Of a DNA stretch of 64,000 nt, positions 13,068 through 37,960 are shown piece after piece (within the stretch, counting starts at the first letter, position 1; every line of letters begins with the position of its first letter). The DNA comes from Candidatus Pantoea edessiphila (GTDB taxonomy: Bacteria; Pseudomonadota; Gammaproteobacteria; Enterobacterales; Enterobacteriaceae), in the NCBI RefSeq assembly GCF_002933335.1, contig NZ_PDKS01000001.1, positions 124,001 through 188,000 on the forward strand, written 5' to 3'. The notes under the pieces were generated by a model. The model did not search any database and was not told where the DNA came from. It worked only from the letters and a program-made list of their open reading frames with translations. Made by a program: the position numbers and the translations under genes.

Positions 13068-14479
13068 TTATTTATTGACACGTAGTAATTGTTTCGCATA
13101 AAGATATAAAGATTTTAATATCTTGATTTTAACTGGATTATTATTATATAGTTGTTTTAATAATTTTATTTCCAATAAAAAGCTTGATATTTTTTTTTCA
13201 TTGAAAATATTTTTACGGTGTATTTCCCAATATTTTTTTTCAACTAGATTTAAAGTATCAGGAAAATTTCTAGCACGATAACGAAATAAAAGTTCCTTTA
13301 ATCTGATATTCTCAAATTTTAAATTTAGCCTTTCTAATAAACAGGGGTTTGTTTGTTGAATTATTTTCATTTTAAATCTATCTGAAATACTAAAAAAACC
13401 ATCATATAATTTAGTATCTACATTATCATTAGGAAAATCAGCTAATTTACTTTTACTTTTATTAAAAAGTATTAGGGCTTTTTTTCTTATTTCTGGATTA
13501 TGACGCAATAATTCTAAATTATCAAAGCAAAGTTTAATGTTAAGTTTTAACCTTATTATATCTTGATGACGCAAGGTATTTATAGAAACTAAAACAGGAC
13601 ATTTATTAAGATGAATTAATTTTAGAGGAATTTCTTCTAAAATGCTATTTTGCAGGGTGAAAATATCTGATTGTATTAAAGGATATAAATTCTTGGATAA
13701 ATCTACTACTATCAGATTGTTATTATTATTAGGATGCCAAGCTAAAGGTAATATTAAACTAATATTACTTCTTGATGAACCAAAAATATTCGATACATAT
13801 ACTAATGGTTTCATTCCAATAATATCAATCATTGATATTATTTTTTCTTTAATACGATTACTAAATAAAAACTCAAAAAGTTTAGGTTGTTTGTTTTTTA
13901 CTAGCTTAGCTACTCCTATAGTAGCATATACATCAGAGATTGCGTTATGAATATTTGAATGAATTATACTATTGGCATGAGTAAGATGCTTTAACTTAAA
14001 GCTAGCATAGCCATCTTTATTCTTTGGCCAATTTATACCATCAGGACGTAATGCATAACAAGCACGAACTACATTTAATATATCCCATCGAGAATTACTG
14101 TTCTTCCAACTCCAACTATATGGATCGTAAAAATTACGATAAAAAATATTACGTGTTACCTCATCATCAAATTGTATATTGTTATAACCTACTATACAAA
14201 TTCTTTTAATTGTTAATATATTATAAATACGCTTAGCAAATTCTGCTTCATTAAAACCTTTTTTTATTACAAATTGAGGCGTGATTCCATTTATTAAAAC
14301 GGCTTTTGGTTCCGGTAAATAATCATTTGGTATACGACAATAAAATATCTCTGGTTTTTTTATGGGATTAAATTCACTATCAGTATAGATACCAGCGAAT
14401 TGGGCAGGACGATCAATAGCAGGATTAGTACCAAAAGTTTCGTAATCATAAAAAAAAAATTAATTTTAGAAAAACTCAT
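13068..14479 (-). CDS. sbcB: Exonuclease I, one-base frameshift in an A10 run near the start
   Basis: SbcB degrades single-stranded DNA 3' to 5' and takes part in recombination and mismatch repair. From 14449 down to 13068 one frame is open. It contains the DEDD exonuclease motif YDYETFGTNPAIDRPAQF, then GYNNIQFDDEVTRNIFYRNFYDPY, HSNIHNAISDVYAT, and the SH3-like and helical C-terminal part (ARNFPDTLNL). This frame has no start codon. The only good start, ATG at 14479-14477 (MSFSKIN), is separated from it by ten A residues on the plus strand (14450-14459). One base more or two fewer would join the frames. Without a correction, only a 254-aa C-terminal product from an internal ATG at 13832 is possible. 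Either a slippage-rescued gene, an early pseudogene, or a sequencing indel. Confidence 0.85.
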
Positions 14480-24892: not shown

Positions 24893-25790
24893 CTATTCAA
24901 TAGTCTGAGAAAAATTATTCGGATTTAGAAATGAATTTAAAGATCTAATAGTCATCCGTGATGTTGTACGTTGTTCTTCACAAGTAGTAGTTGTACAGTT
25001 AACTATTTTTACATTTATAAAATTAATTTTTTCTAGTAGTTCCTTTAGCAAATCAGTTATAAGAATAAAATATATATTATGCATTTGTGCATATCTTTTT
25101 TCCGGGAATATCTTATTAGAACTATCTTTGATAACAAGTGTTTCTAAAACAAGTTATCCTACTTTTTTAATTGATTTTTTAGTTTTATAACATGTTCAAT
25201 AGGAAATATTCTATGATACAAAACTCCTATTGAAAAATAATGTATCAAATGCTTTTAATTCTAGTTTATTTATCAAGTCTTAAGGGTAATAAATATAATT
25301 TGCAATTATTGAGCAATTTGCGTATTGATTCAAATTGTAGCAGAAATAATTGGTGAAAGATCTATTCCAATTACCAGGCGAGTATCATATGCTATCATTC
25401 TCTACCTATAATATCCATTCCCGCAACCTATAATCTAAAATTGTTAACGAAGAAATATGTGGTAGAAGTTCTCCCATTTCCAATCTGAACGCCATTCACT
25501 GTCAATTTTTATACCAAAGGTCCTTTTCTCCATGGTATAAGATTATACAATAATTTCTTTATTCCTTATCTTGAGTAATACTCACAATACTATTATTTGC
25601 TTTAATACGAGATAATAGGTCTGAGTATTATGTTTCTAATAAAGGAAGATATTCTACTGATTTTAACCATTCAAAAAAATTGCCTTATAGTTTTTTTATT
25701 CCAATTATTGATTTGCAATTTTAATGATGTCAACCAATGTGACAAAGGAGTAGATTCTAACTGTATATAAAATTCTCTAAAATTAATCAT
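24893..25790 (-). pseudogene. cmoB: cmoB pseudogene (tRNA U34 carboxymethyltransferase)
   Basis: Minus-strand remains of CmoB, which uses carboxy-SAM to make cmo5U34 in tRNAs. The 5' end (ATG 25790) reads MINFREFYIQLESTPLSHW, then breaks at a run of seven T (plus-strand A 25673-25679). The frame shifts to EWLKSVEYLPLLE. Later fragments PWRKGP, EWRSDWKWE and ILD-GCGNGY appear in changing frames. The last 63 codons are open and match the CmoB C-terminus (MHNIYFI, TTTCEEQRTTSRM, SFLNPNNFSQTIE). Multiple frameshifts and stops make it clearly non-functional. Its ATG overlaps the cmoA stop (ATGA), as a relic of coupling. Confidence 0.85.
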
Positions 25791-26425
25791 TTTAATGCTA
25801 TTAACGAACCAAAATTAAACAATTAAAACCAAACATCTACATGTAAAAAACCAGCTTGTGCTAAAGCAATTGATTTTTTTGCTCAATTTGCAAAACACTA
25901 TAATCATTGGCAATTTTAAAATTATAATTAATACTGGATATTAATTTGTTAATTTTATTATCCTCAAAATTTGATTTTTCTGATAGTATTAGTATACTAT
26001 CTTGGGTTTAATCCTCCTCAATATTCTTTATTAATTTTAAACGCTTTGAAGGTTTTAAAAATTGTAAAGTAAAATTCAGGATTAACCATAGAAGCATTTT
26101 CAATTTTGAAATCTAAAATATCAGATTCTATATAACGACGACATTCTTTAATCATATCTGCATAGTTATCAATAGCAAGATAAGTAATAGTGCAATTAAA
26201 TTGGTATTATAAGAAATTAGATAATGCTGATGATTCTAAGAAACAACTCAAATCAGATATATTGTTTTAGATTTAACAAAATCTATTGCTAATATACCAA
26301 TCTATAAAAATGATATTTGAATATCCAGTGCTGAACTTTGTATCATTAAGCTATTTTTTTGTCAAATATCTAATTACCTATTTTTGAAAGGGGTGTCGAA
26401 TATAATGTGTCTATTCTTTCATTTT
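25787..26425 (-). pseudogene. cmoA: cmoA pseudogene (carboxy-SAM synthase)
   Basis: Degraded minus-strand copy of CmoA, the enzyme that makes carboxy-SAM from SAM and prephenate. Recognisable pieces in order are IDTLYSTPLSKIGN, then IFDKKIA after a stop. IAIDNYADMIKECRRYIE follows, then ILDFKIENASMV and LILSEKSNFEDNKINKLI. AQAGF-HVDVWF and the end FNFGSLIALK complete the series, matching the E. coli order. Several stops and frame changes interrupt it, so it cannot encode a working enzyme. Upstream of cmoB as in E. coli. Both genes have decayed together. Confidence 0.85.
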
Positions 26426-34438: not shown

Positions 34439-35881
34439 TTAAATAACACGTAAAACTCGATTTGTGTTTGTAGTACCGGGTGCACCCATTACATCTCCTT
34501 GTGTTACAATTACTAGATCTCCGTAAACAAGATATTTTTTTTCTAGTAATAAATTTATAGCATCGTAAGCAGCTGCAACCCCCTCATTATTACTTATAAA
34601 CAATACTGGTGTAACACCTCTGTACATAGAAGTTAAATTCAAAGTTCTTATATGACGTGACATAGCAAAAATTGGTAATCCAGATGTAATACGTGAAGTT
34701 ATTAATGGAGTTCTACCAGATTCTGTCATAGTTATAATTGCTGTTACACCAAGCAGATGATTTGCTGTATACATAGCTGACATAGCAATAGCTTCTTCTA
34801 TACTTTTAAACTTTGTATCTAACCTATGTTTTGAAACATTAACGCTAGGAACCTTTTCGGCTCCTAAACATACTTTTGCCATTATGGAAACAGTTTCTTC
34901 TGGATAATTACCAACTGCTGTCTCAGCCGAGAGCATTACAGCATCTGTTCCATCAAGAACTGCATTGGCGACATCCATAACTTCTGCTCTAGTAGGCATA
35001 GGATTGTTTATCATTGATTCCATCATCTGAGTTGCAGTAATAATTATTCGGTTCAATTGACGAGCACGTCTTATTAAATTTTTTTGAATTCCAACTAGTT
35101 CTGGATCGCCAATTTCTACTCCTAAATCACCTCGTGCAATCATTATTGCATCTGATGCTAATATTATATCATCTATATTACTTTGCGTAGTAACTGTTTC
35201 CGCACGTTCAATTTTAGCTACCAATTTAGCATTACAACCTGCTTTATTAGATAGATAACGAGCATAATTTATATCTTTTCCACAACGAGGAAATGATATT
35301 GCTAAGTAATCAACATTAATTTTAGAAGCCATGATAATATCTAATTTATCTTTTTTTGTTAAAATTTCTGCTGATAAACCACCATGTAATTTATTAATAC
35401 CTTTATTATTAGATAGAAAACCTCCAGCTAATACTCTAGTAAATATTATTGTATTATCAACTTTGATTACCTTTAATTGAATTCTTCCGTCATCTAGTAA
35501 AAGAATATCTCCAGATACTACATCATTTGGTAGATTTTTATAATCAATACCAACTTTATCTTTAGTACCTTCATTTTCATTTAAATTAGCATCTAATGCA
35601 AACTTATCTCCAATTTTAAGCAGTATTTTACTATCTTTAAATTTAGATATTCTAATTTTAGGTCCTTGCAAATCACCTAAAATGGCAATATTGTGACCTA
35701 ATCTATTTGCAATCTTACGTACTCGTTCCGCTCGTAATTGATGATCGCTTGCAGTACCATGAGAAAAATTCAATCTCATGACATTAGCTCCTGCTATAAT
35801 AATTTTTTCTATAATGTTTTCTTGATCAGTAGCTGGACCTAGAGTAGTTACGATTTTGGTTCTTCTCAATCTTTGTAACAT
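34439..35881 (-). CDS. pykA: Pyruvate kinase (PykA type)
   Basis: Pyruvate kinase makes ATP and pyruvate from phosphoenolpyruvate. The 480 aa length equals E. coli PykA, and the position near mepM/ptrB is that of pykA rather than pykF. Motifs include [38 protein letters not shown] and the active-site signature KIERAETV, with the catalytic Lys. [13 protein letters not shown] and ATQMMESM are also present. The C-terminal regulatory domain (about 350-480) is complete, ending [10 protein letters not shown]. Monocistronic. Confidence 0.96.
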
Positions 35882-36309
35882 ACATTAATTTCCTAAGCCA
35901 TATTAAATATTTTAATTTGTTTTTTTCTTATTTTTGCTTTATCATATTTGATAACATTTTTTATAATATAAATTTCATTTCTATATATGTAATATAAATG
36001 TAATTAAATATTGCGATATCTATATATCCAATATAAACATAAACAATATTTAGAATTATATATGTTTTTGTATATTTATATCAATTTTTATAATCTAAAA
36101 TTACATTATTAGTACCTGTATATCATAAAAAAATAATTTTTGTTTTTTTTATGATTAATCAAATAAAATAAAAATTTATTGATAATTATCAATGTTACGT
36201 GATGATAAACATCATAACATTATATGTTATCAAACTTTTAGATCATGTAAAAATAATTATACAAAACATATTTTAAAATCACAGAAAGGTTTAAAAAATA
36301 CAATTCTAT
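35882..36309. other. AT-rich spacer upstream of pykA and the ptrB remnant
   Basis: Holds the pykA promoter region on the minus strand and perhaps the decayed first 60 codons of ptrB on the plus strand, which I cannot recognise. No other gene is visible. Confidence 0.4.
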
Positions 36310-37960
36310 AAGAAATTACTGATCGGATACCTATCGTTGATTACTCCGTACCTTATATATGAAAATGGTAAAAAACATCCAGCATAAGGAATATTAAATA
36401 TTAGTCTAGATAATCAATTGATTGCGATATCTGAAGATTTGATTTCTGGATTTCAATATAATATTTTGTTCTTCAATATTAATAATAATTATTGGCATAC
36501 AGAAATATTATATGCTTCATATTCCAGAAATAGTTTGACATAAAAAATTATTTGCAGACTTTAAGATCTTATCAAATATGGTGCTATAAAATAGGTGCAT
36601 TACAGTTATAAGATATATTAATATATGAAAAAAGATGATTCATATTGTTTAAGTATAAGCTAAACAACATCAGAAAAGTTATGATAATATATATCTATAG
36701 CAATATTACTACTGAAATTAGATTAATTGATAATAATTCAAACAACAAACATCCTCAAGTTATCTAGAAGAGGTGATCACAAGTACAGCATAGATTATTA
36801 TAATAATACATTTGTTGTTTGTTCCAATCGTGATATAGAAAATTATATGATTTACTATACAGTATGATTTACTATACAGTAAGATATGTAAGAATGTAAT
36901 TGGCAAGAACTTATAAAGTATAGATAACGAAACAACTTTGGCGAATTTTCAATGATTTCATGATTGGATTGTCATAGAAAAAAGAAAATGAATTAACTAG
37001 TTTAAGACGAATTTATTGGAAACACAAAAATATTACAATAAATTTAAATGATCCTATACACAAAATTTGGTTAGAAGATAATTGTACTCCATTGCATAAT
37101 AATCATAAGTTATGTATACGCTTCAATGACAGATCTTGATACTATATTTGAAATTAACCTAAATAACGGTGAGAAATTTATATTAAAACAAACTATTGAA
37201 AACAACTTTAATTCGTATAACTATAGGATTGAATATCATTTAATACCTGTCAATGATGGGACTAAGATTCCAGTGTCTTTAGTATATAATCGTAATTACT
37301 ATAATTTAGACCAAAATCCGGCGCTAATTTATGGTTATAGTGCATATGGAAATAGTATAGAGGCTAATTTTTGTATTGGTCGTTTAAGTCTTCTAGACAG
37401 AGGGTTTGTTTATCAATCCATGTTTGAGGGGACAAAGAATTAGGGGAAAAATGGCATAGTTCAGTAAACTCTGTAATTGGGAATCCTAAAAAATTATATG
37501 CAAAGGGAAGAAGTGTAGGAGGATTATTAATAGTGGGTCGTTATTAATTTGGCACCTAAAATTTTTATGGGGTTATAGCTCAAGTACCATATCGTTGATT
37601 GATAACAACTATGTCAGGTAAATCAATGCCTATTACTAATTATTAATATAATGAGTGTGATAATACTGAGCAAATTAATTTTTATAATTATATGAAAAAA
37701 TATAGCTCTTATGATAATGTTGAAGCCAAATTTATCCTCATATTTTTATAACCTCTGGTTTTTATGATTCTCAAGTACAATATTGGGAACCAGCCAAATG
37801 GATAGCAAAATTAAGAGAATTAAAGACTAAAAAAAATTATTGTTGCTATATACAGATATGGAATCAGGGCATTTAGTAAAATCACGAAGATATGAAAAAT
37901 ATTAAATGCTATCATTGTAGTTTACTTTTATAATTGCGCTATCAAAAAACTTTTTGACAT
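36310..37960 (+). pseudogene. ptrB: ptrB pseudogene (oligopeptidase B)
   Basis: Plus-strand remains of the S9 serine oligopeptidase PtrB. Recognisable pieces follow the E. coli order: EITDRIPIVDYSVPYLI (36330 region), then NYMIYYTVRYVRM and NWQELIKY. TDLDTIFEINLNNGEKFILKQT follows. A 105-codon open piece at 37126-37443 contains IPVSLVYNRNYY and RLSLLDRGFVY. After it come GRSVGGLLIVGRY (the catalytic-serine loop), GVIAQVPY and YTDMESGH. Stops and frameshifts separate them, including a 17-bp tandem duplication at 36847-36880. About 60 N-terminal codons are not recognisable. Not functional. Confidence 0.88.
36847..36880. repeat. 17-bp tandem duplication inside ptrB
   Basis: ATGATTTACTATACAGT occurs twice in direct succession (36847-36863 and 36864-36880). 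Removing one copy restores the reading NYMIYYTVRYVRM, which aligns to KNFGLYRTRMRDE of E. coli PtrB. The duplication is therefore a disrupting mutation. Confidence 0.85.

Follow-up and report, generated by a model that had tools for sequence, protein, structure and literature searches.

The sbcB gene of Candidatus Pantoea edessiphila very probably (we put this at about 70%) still works as a gene for exonuclease I, in spite of a net −1 break, real and old, that lies within or next to a T run near its start; slippage of RNA polymerase would yield full-length SbcB. RNA polymerase would slip on the ten-base run, adding one U in part of the sbcB transcripts, and ribosomes starting at the ATG (14479) would pass into the frame of the gene body on these +U transcripts, giving full-length SbcB at reduced yield. 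From the conservation of the gene and the form of its break, we infer that the extra-U transcripts exist and that SbcB protein is made; RNA polymerase, rather than the ribosome, is the presumed slipping machine. The new observation reported here is the presence of the identical T10 break in sbcB of a related genome, SoEX.

Structure of the sbcB locus

The window (the whole stretch of DNA analysed, 64,000 nucleotides) comes from a genome of 841 kb, assembled into 11 contigs, of the Candidatus Pantoea edessiphila group. The related genomes include Candidatus Pantoea edessiphila and Pantoea sp. SoEX, both from Edessa. The following features of the sbcB locus were delimited within the window:

14460..14479, minus strand: start of sbcB, made up of the ATG with the coding sequence leading up to the run, in a frame differing from that of the body; a similar leader precedes the run in SoEX (G002) and in G001
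14450..14459, minus strand: T10 run (A10 on the plus strand), the proposed slippage site; the same T10 is found in SoEX
13068..14459, minus strand: frame of the sbcB body (exonuclease I), with 463 codons and a terminal stop but no start codon, identified by Pfam and PDB matches
13068..13832, minus strand: the sole sbcB ORF under ordinary start-codon rules (ORF list), 254 aa, without the nuclease domain

The sequence-only reading had described an exonuclease I frame open over about 460 codons, with the DEDD motifs but no start codon, and had placed its natural start in another frame, across ten A residues. Both descriptions held. The open frame has 463 codons and carries the two Pfam domains RNase_T (PF00929) and Exonuc_X-T_C (PF08411) at full length; it aligned with E. 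coli exonuclease I from end to end (E ~6e-173; PDB 4hcb and 1fxx; residues 11-475 of 4hcb), and its DYETFG and H-x4-D motifs, which we take to be catalytic residues of the DEDD fold, aligned with their E. coli ExoI counterparts. The ATG was confirmed at 14479-14477 and the run at 14450-14459. The position given for the break, codon 10 in the A10 run, was correct in that there is a single break there, but the run spans codons 7 to 10 and the frame switches after codon 10.

The frame opened by the ATG exits the gene past the run and is closed by a stop at its codon 40. The body frame has a TAA directly 5' of the run, and its earliest ATG, GTG or TTG is codon 210, so ordinary annotation recovers only the 254-aa C-terminal piece. 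The gene is followed by hisG, on the same strand, and preceded by tRNA-Asn and putA.

A frame break common to two genomes

Six genomes of the genus were compared: the window genome (G000), SoEX (G002) and four others (G001, G003, G004 and G005). The T10 of SoEX is identical, and both the bases after it and the shift agree with those of the window genome; sbcB is in frame from its start in the four other congeners. The SbcB bodies encoded by the two broken copies are 75% identical. In an unrooted tree based on 80 concatenated proteins from the five genomes other than G003, the window genome and SoEX (81% identical) grouped together with full support. The simplest reading of these sequences would be a single break event predating the split between the two lineages. 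At the corresponding place in G001, the T10 is followed by a His codon; a single base lost from the run or next to it is therefore enough to produce the break.

The sbcB body has probably been under purifying selection since the break, changing no faster than intact genes. Pairwise maximum likelihood estimation for the two broken copies gave an omega of 0.063-0.064 (0.042-0.091), against a median of 0.066 for 240 intact orthologs from the main contig, 53% of which lie above sbcB; these sbcB values are rough, because dS is saturated (about 2.3 for this pair). An omega of 1 was rejected (2dlnL 232), and 20% of the 240 intact orthologs were less conserved in identity than sbcB. The in-frame pairs among G001, G004 and G005 had omega values of 0.069, 0.069 and 0.103, and those with the distant G003 had lower values (0.036-0.052), which are also rough, at a higher dS (5-7). 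Simulated neutral change soon closed the frame, with a probability of 0.05 of no stop, and a mean of 2.7 stops, at 0.02 substitutions per site; none of the 400 runs was still open at 0.08 substitutions per site. Given the sharing of the break with SoEX, an omega at the median and the early appearance of stops under simulated neutral drift, the sbcB frame break is probably old and tolerated. An ordinary pseudogene was rejected on the shared break, omega and the stop simulation.

Other frame breaks at long A/T runs

The search for further breaks covered the main contigs of G000, G001, G002, G004 and G005, together with contigs C5-C9 of G000 compared with C7 and C8 of G002; the remaining contigs of G001, G002, G004 and G005, and nearly all of G003, lay outside this comparison. 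On the remaining contigs of G000, the reading frames on either side of each run of at least 10 bases were inspected for breaks, and any breaks elsewhere on these contigs would hence be missed. Automated detection missed sbcB and the ribE of SoEX, both of which were added after runs of at least 10 bases had been inspected singly.

The window genome contains 19 separate A/T runs of at least 10 bases, six of which lie at a single frame break, in the C-terminal domain of thiI and in sbcB, nadK, accA, rluD and fdhD. A further break, in ispE, falls at an A9. The case of fdhD is weaker, the part before the run being short and its identity inferred, and thiI may be a remnant, as only its last 90 residues were found. 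The positions of the breaks in three of the companion genes are as follows:

G000:C4:27822: nadK, single frame break at an A/T run
G000:C4:242106: ispE, single frame break at an A/T run
G000:C5:4590, G002:C7:148198 and G001:C6:146203: accA, frame break at an A10

The accA gene is thus broken in three of the six genomes, and its body is strongly conserved (omega 0.022-0.051 among the broken copies). The rluD gene is broken in the window genome, in SoEX and, judging from coordinates only, in G004; its omega for the first two genomes is 0.111, a value exceeded by 15% of the 240 intact genes. The omega table has no rows for accA of G003-G005 or for rluD of G003 and G001. A broken ispE was found in the window genome, in SoEX and, again from coordinates only, in G003; the breaks in congeners also include ribE in SoEX, and murI and ppk in G005. 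Neither nadK nor ispE has a second full copy in any of the six genomes, and the E. coli counterparts of nadK, ispE, accA, ribE and murI are essential genes.

The direction of the break was read in 15 gene-genome cases (a set excluding ispE of G003 and rluD of G004), and in every one of them one extra RNA base (+1) would be needed to restore the frame. Across the main contigs of five genomes, single frame breaks were found at 7 of the 36 coding A/T runs of at least 10 bases vs 1 of the 1008 runs of 8-9 bases, more than would be expected by chance; the contrast is somewhat inflated, because the list of broken runs was curated by hand and the longer runs were inspected singly, whereas the shorter ones were not. 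Genes with several breaks (cmoA, oligopeptidase B and yciC) were omitted from the number of broken cases. The suggestion of the sequence-only reading that sbcB is too intact for a gene long dead is therefore strengthened from several sides: a diverged relative that carries this very break, an omega like that of intact genes, companion breaks in genes essential in E. coli and the +1 requirement in every case read.

Single breaks away from long runs also occur, at least in nfsA and manA of the window genome and in one gene of G004. In the window genome, cmoA, oligopeptidase B, manA and nfsA, all dispensable in E. coli, are broken away from runs of at least 9 bases, and cmoA and oligopeptidase B carry multiple breaks:

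window, about 25300-26400 and 35600-37800: decaying cmoA and oligopeptidase B, with two breaks each and nearby runs of 6-8 bases at most

In another symbiont-sized genome (500 kb), sbcB likewise appears in two frames, which meet near codon 36-41 (G015:C1:415380-416770, from coordinates only).

Alternative explanations of the break

The ribosome might itself restore the frame, by a −1 shift on U UUU UUU with re-pairing of tRNA-Phe, so that unedited mRNA would be translated into the same protein. The run does contain this slippery heptamer in the right phase, and the net −1 reading needed in all 15 cases fits −1 ribosomal shifting as well as it fits +1 insertion into RNA. However, the 80 nt 3' of the run folded no better than shuffled sequences (z −0.04, pseudoknots being outside the scope of that fold), a result on which a structured ribosomal shift site was rejected, and no Shine-Dalgarno-like stretch was seen in the 20 bases 5' of the run; we therefore regard a ribosomal shift as unlikely. 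Translation might instead begin inside the gene, 3' of the run, at a non-standard start, and symbionts do sometimes use odd starts, but the body frame offers little to begin from: a stop stands directly before the run, codon 210 is the first ATG, GTG or TTG, and even ATT, ATC, ATA and CTG occur no earlier than codon 15, past the catalytic DYE motif. The pre-run leader is, moreover, similar in three genomes. Such a start was rejected on these codon positions and is extremely improbable.

It is also quite improbable that the break is an assembly or sequencing error, with no shift at the true sbcB run of either genome. Errors are frequent in long homopolymers, every break read has the same direction, nadK, ispE and accA would be expected to be intact, and the sole 11-base run in 571 kb of SoEX is itself at a break (ribE). 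Nevertheless, the error would have had to strike both assemblies, which are credited to different papers in a table of PMC8032781, the entry that fits the window genome (0.841 Mb, 11 scaffolds) at 172x and SoEX, listed there as SoEOx, at 940x; the paper gives MiSeq 2 x 300 as the sequencing method for the 2021 samples. In-frame runs of 11 bases are, moreover, present in the window genome (in ribE and at the start of folate cyclo-ligase), in G004 and in G005, which also has one of 16 bases. The uniform −1 direction of the DNA breaks counts against the main reading in that it would also be expected if replication slippage favoured deletions, if ribosomes shifted by −1 or if long runs were systematically undercalled. 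Replication slippage, for which long runs are also hot spots, could have inactivated sbcB recently and in parallel in the two lineages, leaving a gene that is dead but fresh, and truly decaying genes do exist in the window genome (cmoA, oligopeptidase B, manA and nfsA). Yet two independent events would be required, each within about 0.02 neutral substitutions per site and with identical flanks, and the breaks in nadK, ispE and accA would go unexplained, making parallel inactivation very unlikely.

Evidence bearing on transcriptional slippage

In sbcB, there is a single break at a long A/T run, the rest of the frame is open and the break is kept between diverged lineages, as in homopolymers at which slippage is tolerated. 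Frameshifted genes with poly(A) or poly(T) runs in Buchnera and Blochmannia, rescued by transcriptional slippage, were reportedly described by Tamas in 2008 and Wernegreen in 2010. One point against rescue by slippage is that sbcB is not essential in E. coli.

The sequence-only reading had cited such rescue in Buchnera and Blochmannia, in agreement with PMC3017870, PMC4389277 and PMC5009743. According to PMC5574713, RNA polymerase errors at homopolymers are mostly insertions, that is, in the +1 direction; in Buchnera, 151 of the 157 transcription insertions lay within homopolymers, and their frequency climbed with run length. The same paper reports no frame-restoring event in a survey including Buchnera, which counts against a high efficiency of slippage everywhere. 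PMC5009743 cites corrected transcripts at 12-50% in endosymbionts of aphids and ants, and PMC3017870 describes eight genes of Blochmannia vafer as being of the slippage-tolerated frameshift type. Baranov and colleagues placed the length at which selection against slippage is usually visible at nine A or T, with variation among bacteria (PMC1088944). Among the matches listed in a literature search, none dealt with frameshifts rescued by slippage in symbionts of stink bugs, and neither "homopolymer" nor "sbcB" occurs in the main text of PMC8032781.

Repair genes and the retention of SbcB

Mismatch repair in E. coli employs SbcB among its exonucleases for the 3'-5' direction. In the 816 of 841 kb of the window genome searched, mutS, mutL, mutH and uvrD were present, there was no match to xseA, xseB, dam, recF, recO, recR, sbcC or sbcD, and the one match to exoX was weak (26% identity), at another gene of the RNase_T family; recJ was found in all six genomes. 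As xseA and xseB had no match and exoX only this weak one, mismatch repair may have no 3'-5' exonuclease other than SbcB in the 816 kb searched, a plausible reason for the constraint on its sequence. Over the same 816 kb, mutH is present with no match to dam, and recA with no match to recF, recO or recR.

RecB ends near residue 860 in the window genome and in SoEX, lacking its C-terminal part, presumably the nuclease domain, and is full-length in the other four genomes:

G000:C7:41246-43828 (outside the window) and G002:C8:40373-42937: shortened RecB, about 860 aa

The coincidence of this loss with the sbcB break is weak evidence, because it concerns one branch only. No match to recD was obtained in any of the six genomes, and recD therefore does not explain the difference. 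In E. coli, sbcB is known as a suppressor of recBC acting through the RecF pathway; a reading of the break along these lines is weakened by the lack of a match to recF, recO, recR, sbcC and sbcD in the 816 kb searched and by the single branch on which the recB and sbcB differences coincide. The break has been found in only two of the six genomes, both with a RecB lacking its C-terminal part, and ExoI is perhaps the last 3'-5' exonuclease of mismatch repair. It is conceivable on these grounds, though we think it very doubtful, that the break, beyond being tolerated, determines the dose of exonuclease I, as a self-regulating homopolymer switch acting on mutation rate. If so, the run setting the yield of ExoI would itself be guarded by ExoI-dependent repair.

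Significance and comparison with known systems

Judging from the DNA sequence, sbcB carries a shared, probably old and tolerated frame break, for which rescue by slippage is very likely and the expression of SbcB is predicted. The phenomenon itself is already known in Buchnera and Blochmannia; the lineage is new, and slippage-tolerated frameshifts would thereby extend to another reduced symbiont lineage, living in the gut. As common breaks (sbcB, rluD and accA) occur beside private ones (nadK, ribE, murI and ppk) within one genus, both the gain and the persistence of such breaks can be traced. Ordinary start-and-stop annotation would misread sbcB, nadK, ispE and accA as damaged or lost in these symbionts.

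The locus resembles that of E. coli K-12, in which a few genes likewise separate sbcB and hisG, and the body is homologous to E. coli exonuclease I (SbcB) over its full length; unlike its E. coli counterpart, the symbiont sbcB has its start and its body in separate frames. With the slippage genes of Buchnera and Blochmannia, it shares an otherwise intact sequence with one net indel, placed in a long A/T run, and, according to PMC3017870, PMC4389277 and PMC5009743, the keeping of such breaks across diverged lineages, with essential genes included, in an AT-rich reduced genome. It differs from them in its bearer, a Pantoea-derived gut symbiont of stink bugs, in the gene concerned, sbcB, and in that its corrected transcripts are predicted. 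The tssM of Citrobacter rodentium is, like sbcB, an interrupted gene, and its rescue by transcriptional frameshifting is reported in PMC4256274, but it belongs to another organism and another system, and its rescue, unlike that predicted for sbcB, is reported from experiment.
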